Shown one piece after another: positions 16,188-21,674 of a stretch of DNA of 64,000 nt. Made by a program: the position numbers and the translations under genes. This DNA is from Arthrobacter sp. U41 (GTDB taxonomy: Bacteria; Actinomycetota; Actinomycetes; Actinomycetales; Micrococcaceae): contig NZ_CP015732.1 of assembly GCF_001750145.1 (NCBI RefSeq), positions 2,046,001-2,110,000 of the forward strand, given 5' to 3'. Below the pieces are notes generated by a model. The model ran no database searches and had not been told where the DNA came from. It saw only the letters and a list, made by a program, of their open reading frames with translations. The first letter of the stretch is position 1. Every line of letters starts with the position of its first letter.

Positions 16188-17078
16188 ATGACTGCCCCCG
16201 CTGACTCGTCGTCCCAGGACATCATCTACATCCCGGATCTGCCGTCCACGAGGTTCTACGCGGGCGCGCTGGCCCTGCTGAGCGTGCTGCAGTATTTCGT
16301 CGCCGAGGCCGCCGTGATCGGGGCGTGGGCGGGCCAGCAGCCGTACAGCCGCCGGACCGGCTACATCAGCGACCTGGGCGCCGTGAACTGCGGGGTTTTC
16401 GACTTCCGGGATGTCTGCTCGCCGGCGCACCTGCTGATGAACGCCTCGTTCGTGGTCCAGGGCATTGGCATGATGGTCGGCGCGCTGCTGCTCAGTTCGG
16501 CGCTGTTGTGCACGGCGGCGCGTCCCGCCGCACGGCTCAGGCTGGCTCCAGCCAAGGTCCCGTGGGCGGCCGCGATCGCCGCCCGGACCCTGACCGCCGC
16601 TGCCGGCGCCGGCACCGTCCTGGTGGGGCTGGTGCCCGAGGACGCCGGCTCGGTGGGGCATGTCGTGGGCGCCATCATGTTCTTCGCCGCCGGGGGACTG
16701 GCGCTGGTGCTGCTGGGCTGGCTCTGGCTGCGGCAGACACCGCTGAGCTGGCTCATCCTCGCCTGCGGTGTGGTGTCCGTAGGTGCCCTCATCACTGGCG
16801 GCGTGACGGGCATGGAAGTGCCGGAGCCCGGGACCCTGGAGCGGCTGATGGGTTACCCCATCACGATCGGCATGGCAGCAGTCGGGCTGATGGTTGCGCA
16901 GCGGGTAGGCAGGGAACGGACGGTCCGGCGGCTGGCAGGAGCGCTACCTCCGGCGGCGGGCGGGGGTGCGGACGGGGGTGCCGGCGTGCGTGCCGGCGTG
17001 CGCGGCGGAGGCGGACTGACGGCGGGCTCCTGTCCGCCTGGGCACTGCAATTCCGGGGTGTCTTATGTCTCAAAGTAG
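16188..17078 (+). CDS. DUF998 membrane protein
   Basis: The 296-residue product has seven or eight transmembrane helices between residues 25 and 245 and the DUF998 pattern (YISDLGAVNCG, then a helix with MNASFVVQGIGM). The role of the family is unknown. The C-terminal 50 residues are a Gly/Ala/Arg-rich low-complexity tail that is unusual for the family and may reflect a slipped or extended reading frame at the 3' end. It diverges from the tRNA-Arg gene. Confidence 0.85.
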   Translation: MTAPADSSSQDIIYIPDLPSTRFYAGALALLSVLQYFVAEAAVIGAWAGQQPYSRRTGYISDLGAVNCGVFDFRDVCSPAHLLMNASFVVQGIGMMVGALLLSSALLCTAARPAARLRLAPAKVPWAAAIAARTLTAAAGAGTVLVGLVPEDAGSVGHVVGAIMFFAAGGLALVLLGWLWLRQTPLSWLILACGVVSVGALITGGVTGMEVPEPGTLERLMGYPITIGMAAVGLMVAQRVGRERTVRRLAGALPPAAGGGADGGAGVRAGVRGGGGLTAGSCPPGHCNSGVSYVSK

Positions 17079-17187
17079 CCCGACCTTCGATTATCATAAG
17101 GGCAGTCACCGGAACATTCCGGGGCAGCATGCGCGACGTGACTCCAGCGCATGACGAACGGCCAACTTCGGAGTCCATTGGGGACGA

Positions 17188-17325
17188 ATGTTTGATGAGC
17201 TAGTCTTGCGGCGCTTTGATGCAGCGATCGCCTCCGCGGGCTTGAGCGATGGCGTTGTCCACCACGACGTCGGCCGGGCCCGCCCACGGGCTGTGCCGGC
17301 CTGCCGCCGGGCTGAGCTCCGATGA
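17188..17325 (+). CDS. Possible 45-residue small protein before the STAS-like gene
   Basis: An ATG at 17188, preceded by GGGGACGA, opens a 45-codon frame. It ends in TGA overlapping the ATG of the next gene by four bases. The first 30 residues form a plausible amphipathic helix and the rest is Arg/Pro-rich. The coupling geometry is the main support; codon use is not decisive and I recognise no family. Confidence 0.3.
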   Translation: MFDELVLRRFDAAIASAGLSDGVVHHDVGRARPRAVPACRRAELR

Positions 17326-17783
17326 CGCTCGAGGCCACGGCCGAACCCGGCGAACTGATCCCCGCAGAGCCTGCCCGTGCGCCTGCCGGCGCGCATGATC
17401 CCGGGTTGGCGAGCCTCACACCTGGCCCGATCGGAGTCCGCATCCGTGACGGCGGCATCATCGAAGTGATGCTTCCCGCCAACGAGGAGATCCAGGGTCC
17501 CGAGGCCCGCGTTGCCGGAGCGGCGGTCCGGGCACTGGCCCACGGCCGGCGCATGCCCGTGCTGCTGGTCATCACCGGAGTGCTGGGCGTCAGCGTTGAG
17601 GCGCGGCACGTCTACAGCACCTCCATCGCGGCGTCCGCGTTTGCCCTCGTTGGTGAAAGCCCCGTCGACCGCGTGATCGCGCACTACCTGCTGCGGTCCA
17701 GGACCGAGACCATCCCGGCGCAGTTCTTCCTGTCCGAAGCGGAGGCCATCGACTGGTTAGGGCAGTACGCGAGTGAAAACTGA
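17322..17783 (+). CDS. STAS-like / DUF7793-type protein upstream of GGDEF-EAL
   Basis: The 153-residue protein has a disordered N-terminus (1-35), then alternating strands and helices: IRDGGIIEVMLPA, a helix with ARVAGAAVRAL and VLLVITGVLGVS. This is similar to SpoIIAA/STAS-like domains that Micrococcales genomes place beside diguanylate cyclase genes. No enzyme motif is seen. Its 3' end overlaps the GGDEF-EAL gene by 11 bases, so it probably works with that protein as a partner or regulator. Family assignment is by appearance and moderate. Confidence 0.7.
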   Translation: MTLEATAEPGELIPAEPARAPAGAHDPGLASLTPGPIGVRIRDGGIIEVMLPANEEIQGPEARVAGAAVRALAHGRRMPVLLVITGVLGVSVEARHVYSTSIAASAFALVGESPVDRVIAHYLLRSRTETIPAQFFLSEAEAIDWLGQYASEN

Positions 17784-19308
17784 TCCGCCGGACCCCAGGC
17801 TGCATGCCCTCGTCGAAGGCATCGTCCGGATCGCAGGCGGTGACCTGACGACCAGGATTCCCCATTCCGGTGCCAGGGACGACGTCGCTGCGGTTATCGC
17901 CGGAATCAACCTGATGGCCGACGACCTGCAGACCATTTACCAGGAACTTGAGGAACGCGTCGAAAGCCGGACGGCGATGCTGCGCGACGCCCAGGTCGAG
18001 CTTGAGCGGATGGCACTGACCGATCCGCTGACCCAGCTTGCCAACCGGACGGCGCTGAACTCGGCCCTGAGCCACGCCCTTGCTGAGACGTCCCGGGGCG
18101 AATTGCCGCCGGCGCTGCTGGTCCTCGACCTCGATTCCTTCAAGGGCATCAACGACACCCTGGGCCACAGCGCCGGCGACGATGTCCTCCGGGTGATTTC
18201 GCGGCGGCTGCAGCAAGCCGTTCGGGACACGGACACGGTCGCACGCCTTGGCGGGGACGAATTCGCCGTGATGCTGCCGAAGTCCAATCTGGTCCGGGCC
18301 CGGCGGGTCGCCAACCGGATCCTCAAGGCCCTCGGCGAGAGCCTGGAAATCGGGGACCTGCGTATTACCTGCGGCACCAGCATCGGGCTGCGAGTCGCTG
18401 AACCCGGACAGTCAGTCGACGACCTGGTCATGGAGGCGGATACGGCTATGTACGCGGCCAAGGCGCAGCCGCACAGCAGCATCAAGGTATTCGAACCGGC
18501 GCTGCTCTATGCCCGCCGGCTCCAGAGCGTCATGATCACTGAACTGCGTGAGGCGATCCGCCAGGACCAGCTCACGCTGCATTATCAGCCGGTGGTCGAG
18601 CTTTCCACCGGCAGGATTGAAGGCGTGGAAGCGCTCGTGCGCTGGAACCACCCGGAGCGTGGCCTCCTGATGCCCGATTCCTTCATCCCGCTGGCTGAAG
18701 AGACGGGGATGATCGTGGACCTGGGCCACTGGGTCCTGCGCAACGCCGTGCGCCAACTGCGGCAGTGGCAGCAGGAGCTGAACGTCGACGATAAGTTCAA
18801 CGTCCGCGTGAACATCTCAACGACCGAATTGCAGAACCTCGACCTGATCGAACATGTCCGCGACATCCTCAGCGAAACGGGGGTGAATGCCGCTAACCTG
18901 ATTGTCGAGCTCACGGAGTCCATGGCGATCAACGGCGGGGACGTGGACCAGTATTCACTGAGCGGGCTGCGGCGCTTGGGCGTGCAGCTTGAAATCGATG
19001 ACTTTGGCACCGGCTATTCATCCATCAGCTACCTGCGGAAATTGCCGGTCAACGTGGTCAAAATCGACAAGAGCCTGATCGCCGGGCTGGGCTCAGACGA
19101 GGAGCAGAGCAACTTCGTCGCGGCGGTCCTGCATCTCATCCACGCCTGCGGGCTCACGGCCGTTGCCGAGGGCATCGAGACGGCGGAGCAGGCGGCTGAA
19201 CTCGTCCGGCTGGGCTGCGCCAGCGGCCAGGGTTACTACTTCAGCCGGCCCGTGCCGGCGGCCCAGGTCGAGGCGCTGGTTGGGCCGGGGAACCTGCGGT
19301 TAGGTTAA
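17773..19308 (+). CDS. GGDEF-EAL c-di-GMP cyclase/phosphodiesterase
   Basis: This 511-residue soluble protein starts at GTG 17773. A HAMP-like segment (about 8-65, GGDLTTRIPHSGARDD) leads into a short coiled coil, the GGDEF domain with an intact RLGGDEFA site near residue 162, and the EAL domain with GVEALVRW near 287, plus ELTES and DDFGTGYSS. Both catalytic motifs look intact, so it may make or degrade c-di-GMP. No transmembrane helix precedes the HAMP-like part, which is unusual and suggests that the STAS-like partner supplies the signal. Confidence 0.93.
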   Translation: MKTDPPDPRLHALVEGIVRIAGGDLTTRIPHSGARDDVAAVIAGINLMADDLQTIYQELEERVESRTAMLRDAQVELERMALTDPLTQLANRTALNSALSHALAETSRGELPPALLVLDLDSFKGINDTLGHSAGDDVLRVISRRLQQAVRDTDTVARLGGDEFAVMLPKSNLVRARRVANRILKALGESLEIGDLRITCGTSIGLRVAEPGQSVDDLVMEADTAMYAAKAQPHSSIKVFEPALLYARRLQSVMITELREAIRQDQLTLHYQPVVELSTGRIEGVEALVRWNHPERGLLMPDSFIPLAEETGMIVDLGHWVLRNAVRQLRQWQQELNVDDKFNVRVNISTTELQNLDLIEHVRDILSETGVNAANLIVELTESMAINGGDVDQYSLSGLRRLGVQLEIDDFGTGYSSISYLRKLPVNVVKIDKSLIAGLGSDEEQSNFVAAVLHLIHACGLTAVAEGIETAEQAAELVRLGCASGQGYYFSRPVPAAQVEALVGPGNLRLG

Positions 19309-19356
19309 TCGCCCGCCGGGTGGTTGCCCGCATAATCTGCGAGGTGTTAAGCAAGG

Positions 19357-19394
19357 ACGGCGGGTACTGGAAGTCGCCCTCCGGTACCCGCCGT
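19357..19394. terminator. Bidirectional terminator between GGDEF-EAL and peptide genes
   Basis: ACGGCGGGTAC and GTACCCGCCGT form an 11-pair stem with a 16-base loop, followed by TTTCT on the plus strand. It separates two convergent genes. Confidence 0.8.
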
Positions 19395-19413
19395 TTCTCT
19401 GAATGTCCCAGCC

Positions 19414-19596
19414 TTAGACGCTCGTGGCGTCCGGCCACCAGTTGACAGTCGGCTTGACGGTGTCCGGCCACCAGTTAACGGCTTCCACGGAGCCCTGGGC
19501 AGAGTTTCCACCGGCCGCCGAGATTGCTGAGGTCGCGGAAAGGCCCGCCACGGCCAGCGCGCCAGCGACAAGGAGTGTTGCAAGGGTCTTTTTCAT
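19414..19596 (-). CDS. Small secreted peptide with two NWWPD repeats (candidate signal peptide)
   Basis: The 60-residue product starts at ATG 19596 behind GGAG with an eight-base spacer. MKKTLATLLVAGALAVAG begins a classic signal peptide with a likely cut after AISA (residue 27). The mature part of about 33 residues carries two near-identical units, AVNWWPDTVKP and TVNWWPDATSV, at the very C-terminus. Small exported precursors with C-terminal repeated units are typical of peptide pheromones. Divergent from it, 210 bases away, is a TPR protein. It has its own terminator. I know no described family with this motif; an antimicrobial or structural role is also possible. Confidence 0.8.
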   Translation of the reverse strand: MKKTLATLLVAGALAVAGLSATSAISAAGGNSAQGSVEAVNWWPDTVKPTVNWWPDATSV

Positions 19597-19628
19597 ATAG
19601 GACTCCAGATACGTAAGAGGCTGATGTG

Positions 19629-19645
19629 ACTCGTGTTATGCGAGT
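19629..19645. promoter_or_regulatory. Inverted ACTCG/CGAGT site near the peptide gene start
   Basis: ACTCG and CGAGT flank seven bases, 33 bases upstream of the peptide ATG. The same half-sites recur as a continuous palindrome at 19757-19766, so both may bind one regulator. This is an inference from symmetry only. Confidence 0.35.
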
Positions 19646-19756
19646 TCAGTATAGGGGCATTCGACACGCCACGGTCTAACAATTCTTCGAAGTAATGCAA
19701 ACCTTGTGTTAACGTGTGGTCCTGAGTCGCTGCTGCGCCAATACTTCGTCGACGTG

Positions 19757-19766
19757 ACTCGCGAGT
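19757..19766. promoter_or_regulatory. ACTCGCGAGT palindrome upstream of the TPR gene
   Basis: A perfect ten-base palindrome lies 41 bases before the TPR gene ATG and shares its half-sites with 19629-19645 in the same divergent spacer. Confidence 0.35.
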
Positions 19767-19806
19767 TTGGTTCTGTTTCCCTCTCGCAGCAACGGATAAT
19801 TGGATC

Positions 19807-20826
19807 ATGCAACAAAATTCTGTTTCCTCGTCGTATGTGGCGGCTGAGCTGCAGGCGCGGGAACACCGGGCTGGCCACGACTTTGGAGAGGCATCCCGAA
19901 GCGCCCGCAAAGCTGCGGTGATAGCACTGAGCGACGGCCAGGCCGGGGCGTGGTGGAACATGACCTTTCTCCAAGCTGAGTGTCTGCTGGCAGCTGGTGA
20001 ATTCGAAGCCAGCGCTGAAGTTGCCGGGACCCTTGTCACGTCAGTGGCCACCACACCGCAGCTTCAGGCACAGGTCCACATTCTGAGGGCCAAAGCCTGT
20101 CAGGGTGCCGGCTTATTGGACATCGCTGCGGCCGAAGCCCGAGCCGCGACGGAATTGATGCAGGACGAAGCTGACATTGAAGTGAACGTAACGGCGGGAC
20201 TGGCCCTCATCTCCGCGTTGGGGGACAGCGGGCAGCTCGACGAAGCGTGGGCTGAGAGCCTCAATCTCGCCAAAGTGATATCGGCGGAAGTCGATGAACA
20301 GGTGCTCGGCAAGGCCTACTGGGTGATCGGGAACGTGGCCTTCCTCTGTGGCAAAGTGCCGGAGGGCTTGTATTACCATGAGCTGGCAGCTGCAACGTTT
20401 TCTCCGACTAGGAACCTAGATGTCTGGGCCAAATTCAACAAGGCATCCGCGGCAATGCGGCTTGCCGCGGATGTGTCCGATGACGACACCCTCCGGTGCA
20501 TCGAGCGAGCGGAACTGGCCACGGACATCATCGGCGGCAGCGCGAACGATTATCTCTTATTGAAGCTCAACCGGGGCCACTGGAACTTCCTGGCCGGCGA
20601 CCACGCCGCAGCCGTCGCATTGCTGGAAGACATTTTTGTGGAAGCCGAAAAACCTTCGCCACAGATTCTGGGAGAGGCTGGCCTGTTACTGGGTCGGGCA
20701 AATGCAGCAATGGGACATCGGGAAGCGGCCCAGAAGCATCTACTCAAGGCCGTCGAGCATTTTGAGGCTTCGGGCGCACAACAACGTGCGGACCAGGCCC
20801 GGGAATATCTCACAAACGAGGCCTGA
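19807..20826 (+). CDS. TPR-repeat protein divergent from the NWWPD peptide
   Basis: The 339-residue protein is all helical and built from about seven TPR-like pairs across its length, for example AECLLAAGEFEASAEVAGTL, LISALGDSGQLDEAWAES and LGRANAAMGHREAAQKHLLK. No N-terminal HTH, signal peptide or enzyme domain is visible, which resembles Rap-type peptide receptors more than PlcR/Rgg regulators. ATG 19807 has only a weak GGATC upstream, so translation may be weak or leaderless. Three TTA codons occur (in GAGLLD, DYLLLK and GLLLGR), which is rare in this high-GC DNA and hints at acquired origin. The divergent peptide gene is its likely partner. Confidence 0.82.
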   Translation: MQQNSVSSSYVAAELQAREHRAGHDFGEASRSARKAAVIALSDGQAGAWWNMTFLQAECLLAAGEFEASAEVAGTLVTSVATTPQLQAQVHILRAKACQGAGLLDIAAAEARAATELMQDEADIEVNVTAGLALISALGDSGQLDEAWAESLNLAKVISAEVDEQVLGKAYWVIGNVAFLCGKVPEGLYYHELAAATFSPTRNLDVWAKFNKASAAMRLAADVSDDDTLRCIERAELATDIIGGSANDYLLLKLNRGHWNFLAGDHAAAVALLEDIFVEAEKPSPQILGEAGLLLGRANAAMGHREAAQKHLLKAVEHFEASGAQQRADQAREYLTNEA

Positions 20827-20864
20827 GCCCGCCTGTCTGATTCTGTGCCCTCCTACCCCAGCGA

Positions 20865-20944
20865 GGGGCATGCCCTCCGGGATCCGCGACGGATGGACTT
20901 AGGGCACTGTGTCCACGGGCCGTGACTAGGACTGGGCATGTCCC
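20865..20944. repeat. Intergenic repeat, copy A (about 80 bases)
   Basis: The unit begins GGGGCATGCCC and ends GGGCATGTCCC. It shares two exact blocks with copy B: a 22-base block starting CCGGGATCCGCGACGG (20877) and a 19-base block CTAGGACTGGGCATGTCCC (20926). Inverted termini suggest a folding REP-like element. Confidence 0.8.
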
Positions 20945-20958
20945 GCGGGAGGCATCGT

Positions 20959-21039
20959 GGGACATGCCCGCCGGGATCCGCGACGGATGGACATAGTGGG
21001 ACTACGCCCAGTGGCCGCAGCTAGGACTGGGCATGTCCC
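20959..21039. repeat. Intergenic repeat, copy B, running into a gene end
   Basis: This second unit begins GGGACATGCCC and ends GGGCATGTCCC, 94 bases after copy A. Its right end supplies the last codons and stop of the minus-strand membrane protein gene (GHAQS, stop). Between copies A and B the termini GGGCATGTCCC and GGGACATGCCC form a perfect 11-pair inverted repeat. Confidence 0.8.
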
Positions 21040-21674
21040 TCGGTGCGAGCACCGGCGGAGGCAGGCTTGCGGCCCAGGAACACTGCGGCGATTCCGACCA
21101 CGAGGCTCAGTACCAACAGCACCCAGCCCGCGACGGTGAGGCCCGATGCCAGGGCAACTTGGCCGGCGTCGACGCTGTCGGCGGACATCATTTGGTCTAT
21201 GGTCGCATTGCCCCACAGCCTTACCGCCGCGAAGAGCAGGGGTACGGCCCACAGTGCCCAGCGCAGTCCCTTCCGCGCGACGTTCGTGCCGATGAGCAGG
21301 AGCCACGTGAAGCCGAAGATCAGCGGGAAGAGCGTGCCCGCCGTCTTGTGAACGTAGTTGAGCTGCCCGCGGGCATCCTCGTCCATCGCGGCACGCAACC
21401 GCTCCACGAAGCCTTGGTCGAAACCCCCGAACAGGGAGTCCGGCATTGCCAGGCCGCCGCTGAGCTGGGTGAGCTGGTTCAGGGTGAGCAGGTGCAGGTA
21501 CCAGAACAGGAACAGGCTCGCCACAACACCGGCGATCAGGATCAGATTGCTGTTGTTCTGTGCCTTCTTCGGGGTCCGGCTGGTGCTGGGATTGATCACC
21601 GACGGCAGGTGGTGCTGGGGGATGGACGCGTTGGCGCCGTGCTTCTTGAACCGCTGCGCGGGTGTCTTGGCCAT
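21021..21674 (-). CDS. Four-helix membrane protein of unknown function
   Basis: The 217-residue product starts at ATG 21674 (MAKTPAQRFKKHGANASIPQ). A basic cytoplasmic N-terminus leads into a helix at about 46-65, an external segment of about 50 residues containing FDQGFVERLRAAMDEDARGQ, and three further helices (100-195). I recognise no family beyond actinobacterial membrane proteins of this size. The last residues, GHAQS, are encoded inside intergenic repeat copy B, so the C-terminus has been replaced or extended by the repeat. It diverges from the IMPase-family gene. Confidence 0.78.
   Translation of the reverse strand: MAKTPAQRFKKHGANASIPQHHLPSVINPSTSRTPKKAQNNSNLILIAGVVASLFLFWYLHLLTLNQLTQLSGGLAMPDSLFGGFDQGFVERLRAAMDEDARGQLNYVHKTAGTLFPLIFGFTWLLLIGTNVARKGLRWALWAVPLLFAAVRLWGNATIDQMMSADSVDAGQVALASGLTVAGWVLLVLSLVVGIAAVFLGRKPASAGARTEGHAQS

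Follow-up and report, generated by a model that had tools for sequence, protein, structure and literature searches.

The question raised by this locus is whether a small exported protein of Arthrobacter sp. U41 and the TPR protein encoded divergently from it form a peptide signal and receptor of the RRNPP kind, as the initial annotation had proposed. In the consulted sections of PMC10075063, quorum sensing by linear peptides that are re-imported is regarded as characteristic of Bacillota, and small molecules as the typical signals of Actinobacteria; the RRNPPA receptors are treated as a Bacillota family there and in the consulted sections of PMC9765709 and PMC12700828. The locus lies in the window, by which we mean the whole stretch of 64,000 nucleotides analysed (2.046-2.110 Mb of contig 1 in a 4.79 Mb genome). 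We consider it likely that the pair is an RRNPP-type peptide signal and that its receptor, which has no HTH, acts on a linked GGDEF-EAL enzyme.

The window precursor (MKKTLATLLVAGALAVAGLSATSAISAAGGNSAQGSVEAVNWWPDTVKPTVNWWPDATSV) begins with a lysine-rich start, followed by an alanine- and leucine-rich leader and the two VNWWPD copies. DNA encoding NWWPD occurs at two sites in the whole 4.79 Mb genome, both inside this gene. The exported precursor with its two units and the divergent TPR gene are present as the initial annotation had described them (Table 1). Convergent with the peptide gene stand plus-strand DUF7793 and HAMP-GGDEF-EAL genes, which overlap one another by 11 bp; these two genes, absent from the initial annotation, belong to the unit.

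Promoter features were read by eye from the intergenic regions of the window and of 38 Arthrobacter/Pseudarthrobacter relatives. An inverted repeat, ACTCG-N7-CGAGT (window 19600-19700), adjoins the -10-like TATACT and the GACACGCC box, which grows to GACACGCCGTGTC in the intergenic regions of some relatives. The stretch that separates the TPR gene from the next one contains short direct repeats, CGGGATCCGCGACGGATGGAC and AGGACTGGGCATGTCCC (20868-21030), possibly an intergenic repeat family to judge from their sequence. No Rfam family scored above threshold in window 17000-21600. In-frame TTA codons numbered three in the TPR gene (codons 103, 251 and 294), one in the GGDEF-EAL gene and none in the peptide gene. 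The three in the TPR gene, which had been pointed out before, are thus real, but 24 of 39 TPR orthologues have no TTA codon at all; they are therefore not a conserved feature and were dropped as a regulatory mark.

Table 1. Features of the peptide/receptor locus and of the second pair in the same genome; positions are those of the window unless a locus or contig is named
Feature	Position	Strand	Description	Basis
Putative peptide pheromone precursor gene	19414-19596	-	60 aa: Sec-type leader, linker, two VNWWPD units	ORF list
Repeat unit 1, VNWWPD (predicted mature hexapeptide)	19462-19479	-		Hexamer boundary from within-precursor identity profile
Repeat unit 2, VNWWPD	19429-19446	-		Sequence
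HTH-less TPR receptor gene (putative)	19807-20826	+	339 aa	ORF list; alignment with XRE-TPR homologues
HAMP-GGDEF-EAL c-di-GMP cyclase/phosphodiesterase gene	17773-19308	+	Probable output	Pfam
DUF7793 gene	17322-17783	+	Heads the putative operon of the enzyme	Pfam
Divergent promoter region	19597-19806	.	210 bp; -10-like TATACT for peptide gene and GACACGCC box	By eye
Second peptide/receptor pair (putative)	L007:1456-3072 = G000:C1:579195-580811		XRE-TPR gene and precursor with 3x VGNWPDPM	

The window TPR protein scored below the Pfam TPR cut-offs (TPR_6, 16.2 vs 26.3 bits), and its assignment as a cytosolic TPR-repeat receptor was made through the one paralogue in the genome (C1:579750-580748, 39 % identical). 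At the N-terminus of this paralogue is an XRE HTH (HTH_31, 44.6 bits; HTH_3, 42.3 bits), and behind it come TPR repeats above the TPR_12 and TPR_14 cut-offs; the window protein, aligned with the paralogue along its length, is 37-39 % identical to it. The HTH is absent from the window protein both by Pfam and in this alignment, which bears out the earlier claim that it has no DNA-binding domain. In 65 aligned receptor sequences W172, N176, W207 and R218 were invariant and N211 was nearly so. Matches to PlcR (E 6e-8) and ComR (E 2.5e-5) were confined to the HTH, and that to RapF was weak (E 0.02 over 94 positions). We therefore describe the pair as one that works like an RRNPP system and claim no RRNPP membership for it, because the HTH is missing from the window receptor, as it is from Rap, and homology to the solved RRNPPA receptors is not convincing.

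The paralogue has a divergent precursor of its own, ending in three VGNWPDPM units. DNA encoding GNWPD was found at three sites in that precursor and at one other site, so that the two precursors share no core, NWWPD and GNWPD sites being separate. The fourth site (G000:C1:4169280) was considered as a possible third precursor and rejected; it lies in a 289-aa frame that does not resemble an exported precursor and was taken as chance. The short intergenic region of the second pair is strongly alike in genomes of the same genus and has opposed TTGACA boxes (by eye).

Searching with the window precursor returned 108 homologues at E≤10, mostly of 49-50 aa, of which 46 were examined. Genome contigs scanned with the TPR protein yielded 40 loci, all from Arthrobacter or Pseudarthrobacter; the closest relative returned was that of Pseudarthrobacter oxydans (91 % identical), the window's own genome possibly having been omitted from the scan. 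A divergent exported precursor, its start 169-264 bp from the TPR start, was found in 38 of the 40 loci, export leaders being called by a simple home-made hydropathy rule. No precursor was present within 1 kb of the HTH-less receptor in L038, nor in L039, where the 1.1 kb up to the contig end are occupied by a transposase-like frame (by eye). The 38 precursors and that of the window were chosen by their MK(K/R) start, independently of W-P, and all 39 contain W-P. A recount over a further set of genomes, from the family and from beyond it, used profile-based strand choice and scored 145 of 148 loci (L207-L209 had no TPR-profile match and were dropped). In the family, called Micrococcaceae after its named members, it placed a W-P precursor at 35 of 38 HTH-less receptor loci from 10 genera, the 35 including the window (L075) and L074, a contig shared with the 40-locus set. 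The loci without one were two broken-gene pieces (L078 and L176) and an HTH-less copy in g10 (L149).

Exported W-P small ORFs elsewhere in the 678,493 bp flanking 40 receptor loci numbered 35, one of them (in L216) being the precursor in a second, tandem pair; the chance expectation is 0.016 per 620-bp one-strand window. With the same finder, a close divergent upstream precursor was detected at 20/20 HTH-less and 14/20 XRE-TPR loci. Pairing of the 60-aa precursor with a divergent HTH-less TPR gene is conserved, and beyond chance. The idea was to have been given up if homologues of the peptide gene never stood beside a TPR gene, and the opposite was found in both counts. L216 (G375:C1:1940500-1958500) contains two tandem HTH-less pairs with different cores (VGNWPG repeats and IDDWPH).

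In precursors with several units, a hexamer made up of three residues, W-P and one further residue is repeated almost exactly while the linkers diverge. Identity of the six-residue core was 0.99 within and 0.62 between precursors (n=58 with two or more units; reached by 0 of 2000 shuffles of the units). Around the W of W-P, within-precursor identity was 0.94-1.00 at positions -3 to +2, W and P being identical by construction, and it fell to 0.18-0.63 at -9 to -4 and 0.30-0.59 at +3 to +12. Exact repeats can also stem from recent duplication, but so sharp a drop outside the core is predicted by selection on a mature hexapeptide and not by plain duplication alone. Among species the cores vary (VGNWPD, IGNWPD, TGWWPN, IGWWPN, VNWWPD, NNNWPL, GGLWPY and others), and the combination of near-exact cores, diverging linkers and species differences suggests a processed pheromone. 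In 14 single-unit precursors dN/dS was about 0.55 in the C-terminal part, 0.24 in the linker and 0.12 in the leader; stronger purifying selection on the core was not found in these 14, and the faster C-terminal evolution is compatible with changing specificity and is no proof of constraint.

The peptide might, on the other hand, stay unprocessed in the membrane or wall and act only on the producing cell, as a self-sensing device. No protease was among the linked genes typed, and internal units would have to be cut at both sides, which fits such a device. Against it, the cores are sharply delimited, and 32 of 111 distinct precursors stop exactly one residue after their last W-P, so that the core is the C-terminus there, as for peptides freed by one cut. 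Pheromone precursors with several copies are, moreover, known in RRNPPA systems, according to parts of PMC9765709 and PMC11343458, and we regard an unprocessed peptide as very improbable.

Core distance tracked receptor distance with GGDEF-EAL distance controlled for (partial r 0.25, reached in 0 of 999 permutations; reverse 0.05) in a test that took in 56 of 58 loci, and the same correlation was 0.49 over 472 receptor pairs of >55 % identity; tests of the Mantel type are lenient.

Every one of 37 same-genus genomes had a receptor match, and 18 had two (E≤1e-40, kinds not told apart). A W-P precursor was found at 29 of 62 XRE-TPR family loci with the strict finder, and a looser pass added L058. 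Most XRE-TPR loci of g2, g5, g101, g106 and g11 had no precursor; receptors lacking a neighbouring precursor are therefore common, and they are also reported for RRNPPA in part of PMC9765709. In a tree of 134 TPR domains, 29 of 37 HTH-less family receptors stood in one run of tips, with seven others (g110, g115 and g7) apart and L149 alone; the tree was read as tip order only, with first-pass HTH labels that misread about ten loci (the opposite strand being also open). XRE-TPR transcription factors with W-P precursors of their own are the probable ancestors of the HTH-less receptors, since the relatives in outgroup families all carry the HTH, and this derivation would parallel the relation of Rap to NprR in Bacillota. 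Conserved pairing, an XRE-TPR paralogue with its own precursor, near-exact cores and co-divergence together support the RRNPP-like pair put forward in the initial annotation.

What the receptor acts on is suggested by the adjoining genes. The enzyme matched EAL (255.7 bits), GGDEF (147.3 bits) and HAMP (29.6 bits) in Pfam and carries both catalytic motifs (GGDEFA and EALVRW), as a bifunctional GGDEF-EAL protein does; it also contains an RxxD pattern, which we take to be the inhibitory site. DUF7793 scored 55.7 bits against a cut-off of 26. A co-oriented GGDEF-EAL gene was linked to the HTH-less receptor in 59 of 60 loci (39/40 in Arthrobacter/Pseudarthrobacter and 20/20 in others, from nine genera), the exception, L043, being a 4.4-kb contig; the matches in L035 and L047 were incomplete (199 and 392 aligned residues). 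As the 4.79 Mb genome has seven GGDEF domains, a linkage within 6.6 kb would arise by chance with a probability of about 2 % per locus. At XRE-TPR loci with comparable flanks (L244 shorter), from 13 genera, the linkage was found in 0 of 20. The enzyme gene occurs in three arrangements, upstream beyond the precursor or 1-3 kb or 5-6 kb downstream of the receptor start, and a DUF7793 match directly precedes it in 52 of the 60 loci. In L212 and L222 there is a candidate ATGA overlap that would set the enzyme start on the receptor stop. This link between an HTH-less receptor and a GGDEF-EAL enzyme is new, and the c-di-GMP enzyme is probably the output of the receptor.

The TPR protein might instead bind the peptide and then titrate or modify the XRE-TPR paralogue or some other regulator, with the c-di-GMP genes merely co-regulated. 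The genomes with two receptor matches and the related cores of the two precursors (NWWPD and GNWPD) would suit this, as does the action of Rap proteins on regulators described in part of PMC9765709. The GGDEF-EAL gene has, however, been kept through three gene orders at HTH-less loci and is missing from the XRE-TPR loci, and HTH-less pairs are also present in g7, g99 and g110, whose searched genomes gave no XRE-TPR match (E≤1e-15). We accordingly hold this course of events to be unlikely, and prefer the linked enzyme as the target.

Polysaccharide genes are also part of the cluster in some lineages. At least 16 of the 60 HTH-less loci, a lower bound because the Arthrobacter/Pseudarthrobacter flanks end at 6 kb, and 0 of 20 XRE-TPR loci contained a long GT2 match together with a GH18-like, CBM5/12-bearing protein. 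The position of these genes varies, being upstream of DUF7793, between the receptor gene and the enzyme gene, or beyond the latter. In the window's genome the linked GT2 had no match. In L009, L014 and L019 only short GT2 matches (48-82 residues) lay just before DUF7793, perhaps the remains of a lost synthase gene. The GT2 protein presumably makes an exopolysaccharide, and the ancestral unit would have comprised precursor, receptor, GH18, GT2, DUF7793 and GGDEF-EAL, the polysaccharide genes having been lost in some lineages. Such clustering could also mean that the W-P protein is itself a secreted product (matrix component, adhesin or antimicrobial) made together with the exopolysaccharide, its repeated W-P motifs perhaps binding glycans, and that the TPR protein only regulates its production. 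Yet many precursors have 49-50 aa and a single short core, XRE-TPR receptors have the same kind of precursor (14/20) without the cassette, and the cores co-diverge with the receptor; a secreted product is, in our view, rather improbable, even more so than a regulator as target, and a peptide signal is preferred.

Similar pairs are scattered patchily over the class. Beyond the family, a class-level search of 296 genomes returned full-length XRE-TPR relatives in ten other families; the class-wide figure of 62/296 genomes was rejected as a prevalence because many of the matches cover the HTH only. Divergent precursors were found in 17 of 18 loci of f38 (six with W-P, such as DWPGMCC, and 11 with CC, such as SPGEFCC), 2/3 of f27 (PPTCC), 2/4 of f17 (GGSWPT repeats; DTWPA), 1/1 of f46 (CC), 1/2 of f54 (LNWPKCC), 1/1 of f58 (LDWPWI) and 1/6 of f37, while f35 (n=5) had two CC precursors and two with a late W; the chance baseline given above was computed for W-P ORFs. 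By the strict count there was no divergent precursor in f45 (0/3) or f53 (0/2), and two f45 loci had an exported ORF ending in WCC, convergent behind the receptor. The f38 loci L122-L126, L130, L133, L135, L136, L191, L193 and L195-L200 have divergent exported precursors of 40-54 aa ending in CC, which from their sequence and their position beside XRE-TPR genes are a possible second peptide class.

Plasmids gave no DNA match to the window pair. XRE-TPR relatives were found on 40 plasmid records, 36 of them from Streptomyces; in two of six Streptomyces plasmid loci examined (L260 and L262) an exported precursor lay 3' of the receptor and convergent with it, and four had none. Those two precursors (NZ_CP108000.1 and NZ_CP134614.1; L262:3009-3269 and L260:2988-3131) are annotated as 'hypothetical proteins', and L262 has IGWPVAP repeats. 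An arbitrium-like phage carrier was also sought and none was found, since 50,697 phage records gave a single match, of 60 residues and to the HTH, and a viral-contig scan with a single pattern gave no relative among 11 pattern matches.

Under the reading that we prefer, the precursor, with its leader-like start, would be exported by Sec, and proteases would free the hexapeptide VNWWPD, two per precursor, as the repeat pattern suggests. The hexapeptide would re-enter through an oligopeptide permease, for which the genome has six candidate binding proteins (SBP_bac_5), and would bind the divergently encoded cytosolic TPR protein, with which it is paired and co-diverges. The receptor would then contact the linked HAMP-GGDEF-EAL enzyme, perhaps through DUF7793; action by protein contact is proposed because the receptor has no DNA-binding domain. 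Cell density would in this way set c-di-GMP, and hence exopolysaccharide or attachment. With less assurance, we also lean towards the wider view that Actinomycetota have a widespread RRNPP-like language of their own, with W-P cores in Micrococcaceae and some Streptomyces and CC-ended precursors in other families, and that one Micrococcaceae receptor lost its HTH to become a dedicated pheromone input to GGDEF-EAL and exopolysaccharide, setting c-di-GMP directly.

A conserved peptide-receptor pair in Actinomycetota would change this view of a Bacillota trait, and would provide a defined hexapeptide per species that is open to synthesis and testing. It would also tie c-di-GMP and matrix directly to cell density in bacteria that are common in soil, and would add an independent loss of the HTH by a transcription factor that senses peptides, such as has been proposed for Rap (PMC9765709, in part). 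No such peptide/receptor system was found in a library of published open-licence papers, where the core strings occurred in one unrelated paper only, and the available part of a 2026 study of Micrococcus luteus reports having no evidence for a competence-inducing peptide in that species.

Several known systems resemble the one proposed here. RpfR-type DSF receptors (PAS-GGDEF-EAL) likewise couple a quorum signal to c-di-GMP turnover with no transcription factor in between; there the fatty acid binds the enzyme itself, whereas here a separate TPR protein would bind the signal. Rap-Phr of Bacillus, whose receptor starts with an N-terminal three-helix bundle and whose signal is a penta- or hexapeptide, also combines an HTH-less TPR receptor with an exported pro-peptide. 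Known RRNPPA precursors are mostly downstream of the receptor and not divergent, and the window system differs further from RRNPP/RRNPPA in its occurrence in Actinomycetota, its W-P core and the linkage of its receptor to a GGDEF-EAL enzyme; for the window receptor, no convincing full-length homology was found. In Vibrio vulnificus, RcbAB are also TPR-domain proteins that modulate c-di-GMP, but the part of PMC12282931 consulted names no peptide signal, unlike the window pair. The targets of Rap are two-component regulators (PMC9765709, in part), whereas the gene linked to the window receptor encodes a c-di-GMP enzyme. With RRNPP/RRNPPA as a whole (Rap, NprR, PlcR, Rgg, ComR, PrgX and AimR), as described in the same part of PMC9765709, the window system shares a cytosolic TPR receptor adjoining a small exported precursor, a short peptide (for the window, as predicted from the repeat pattern) that is sometimes present in several copies per precursor, and an HTH-less branch (Rap) beside HTH-bearing relatives (NprR).
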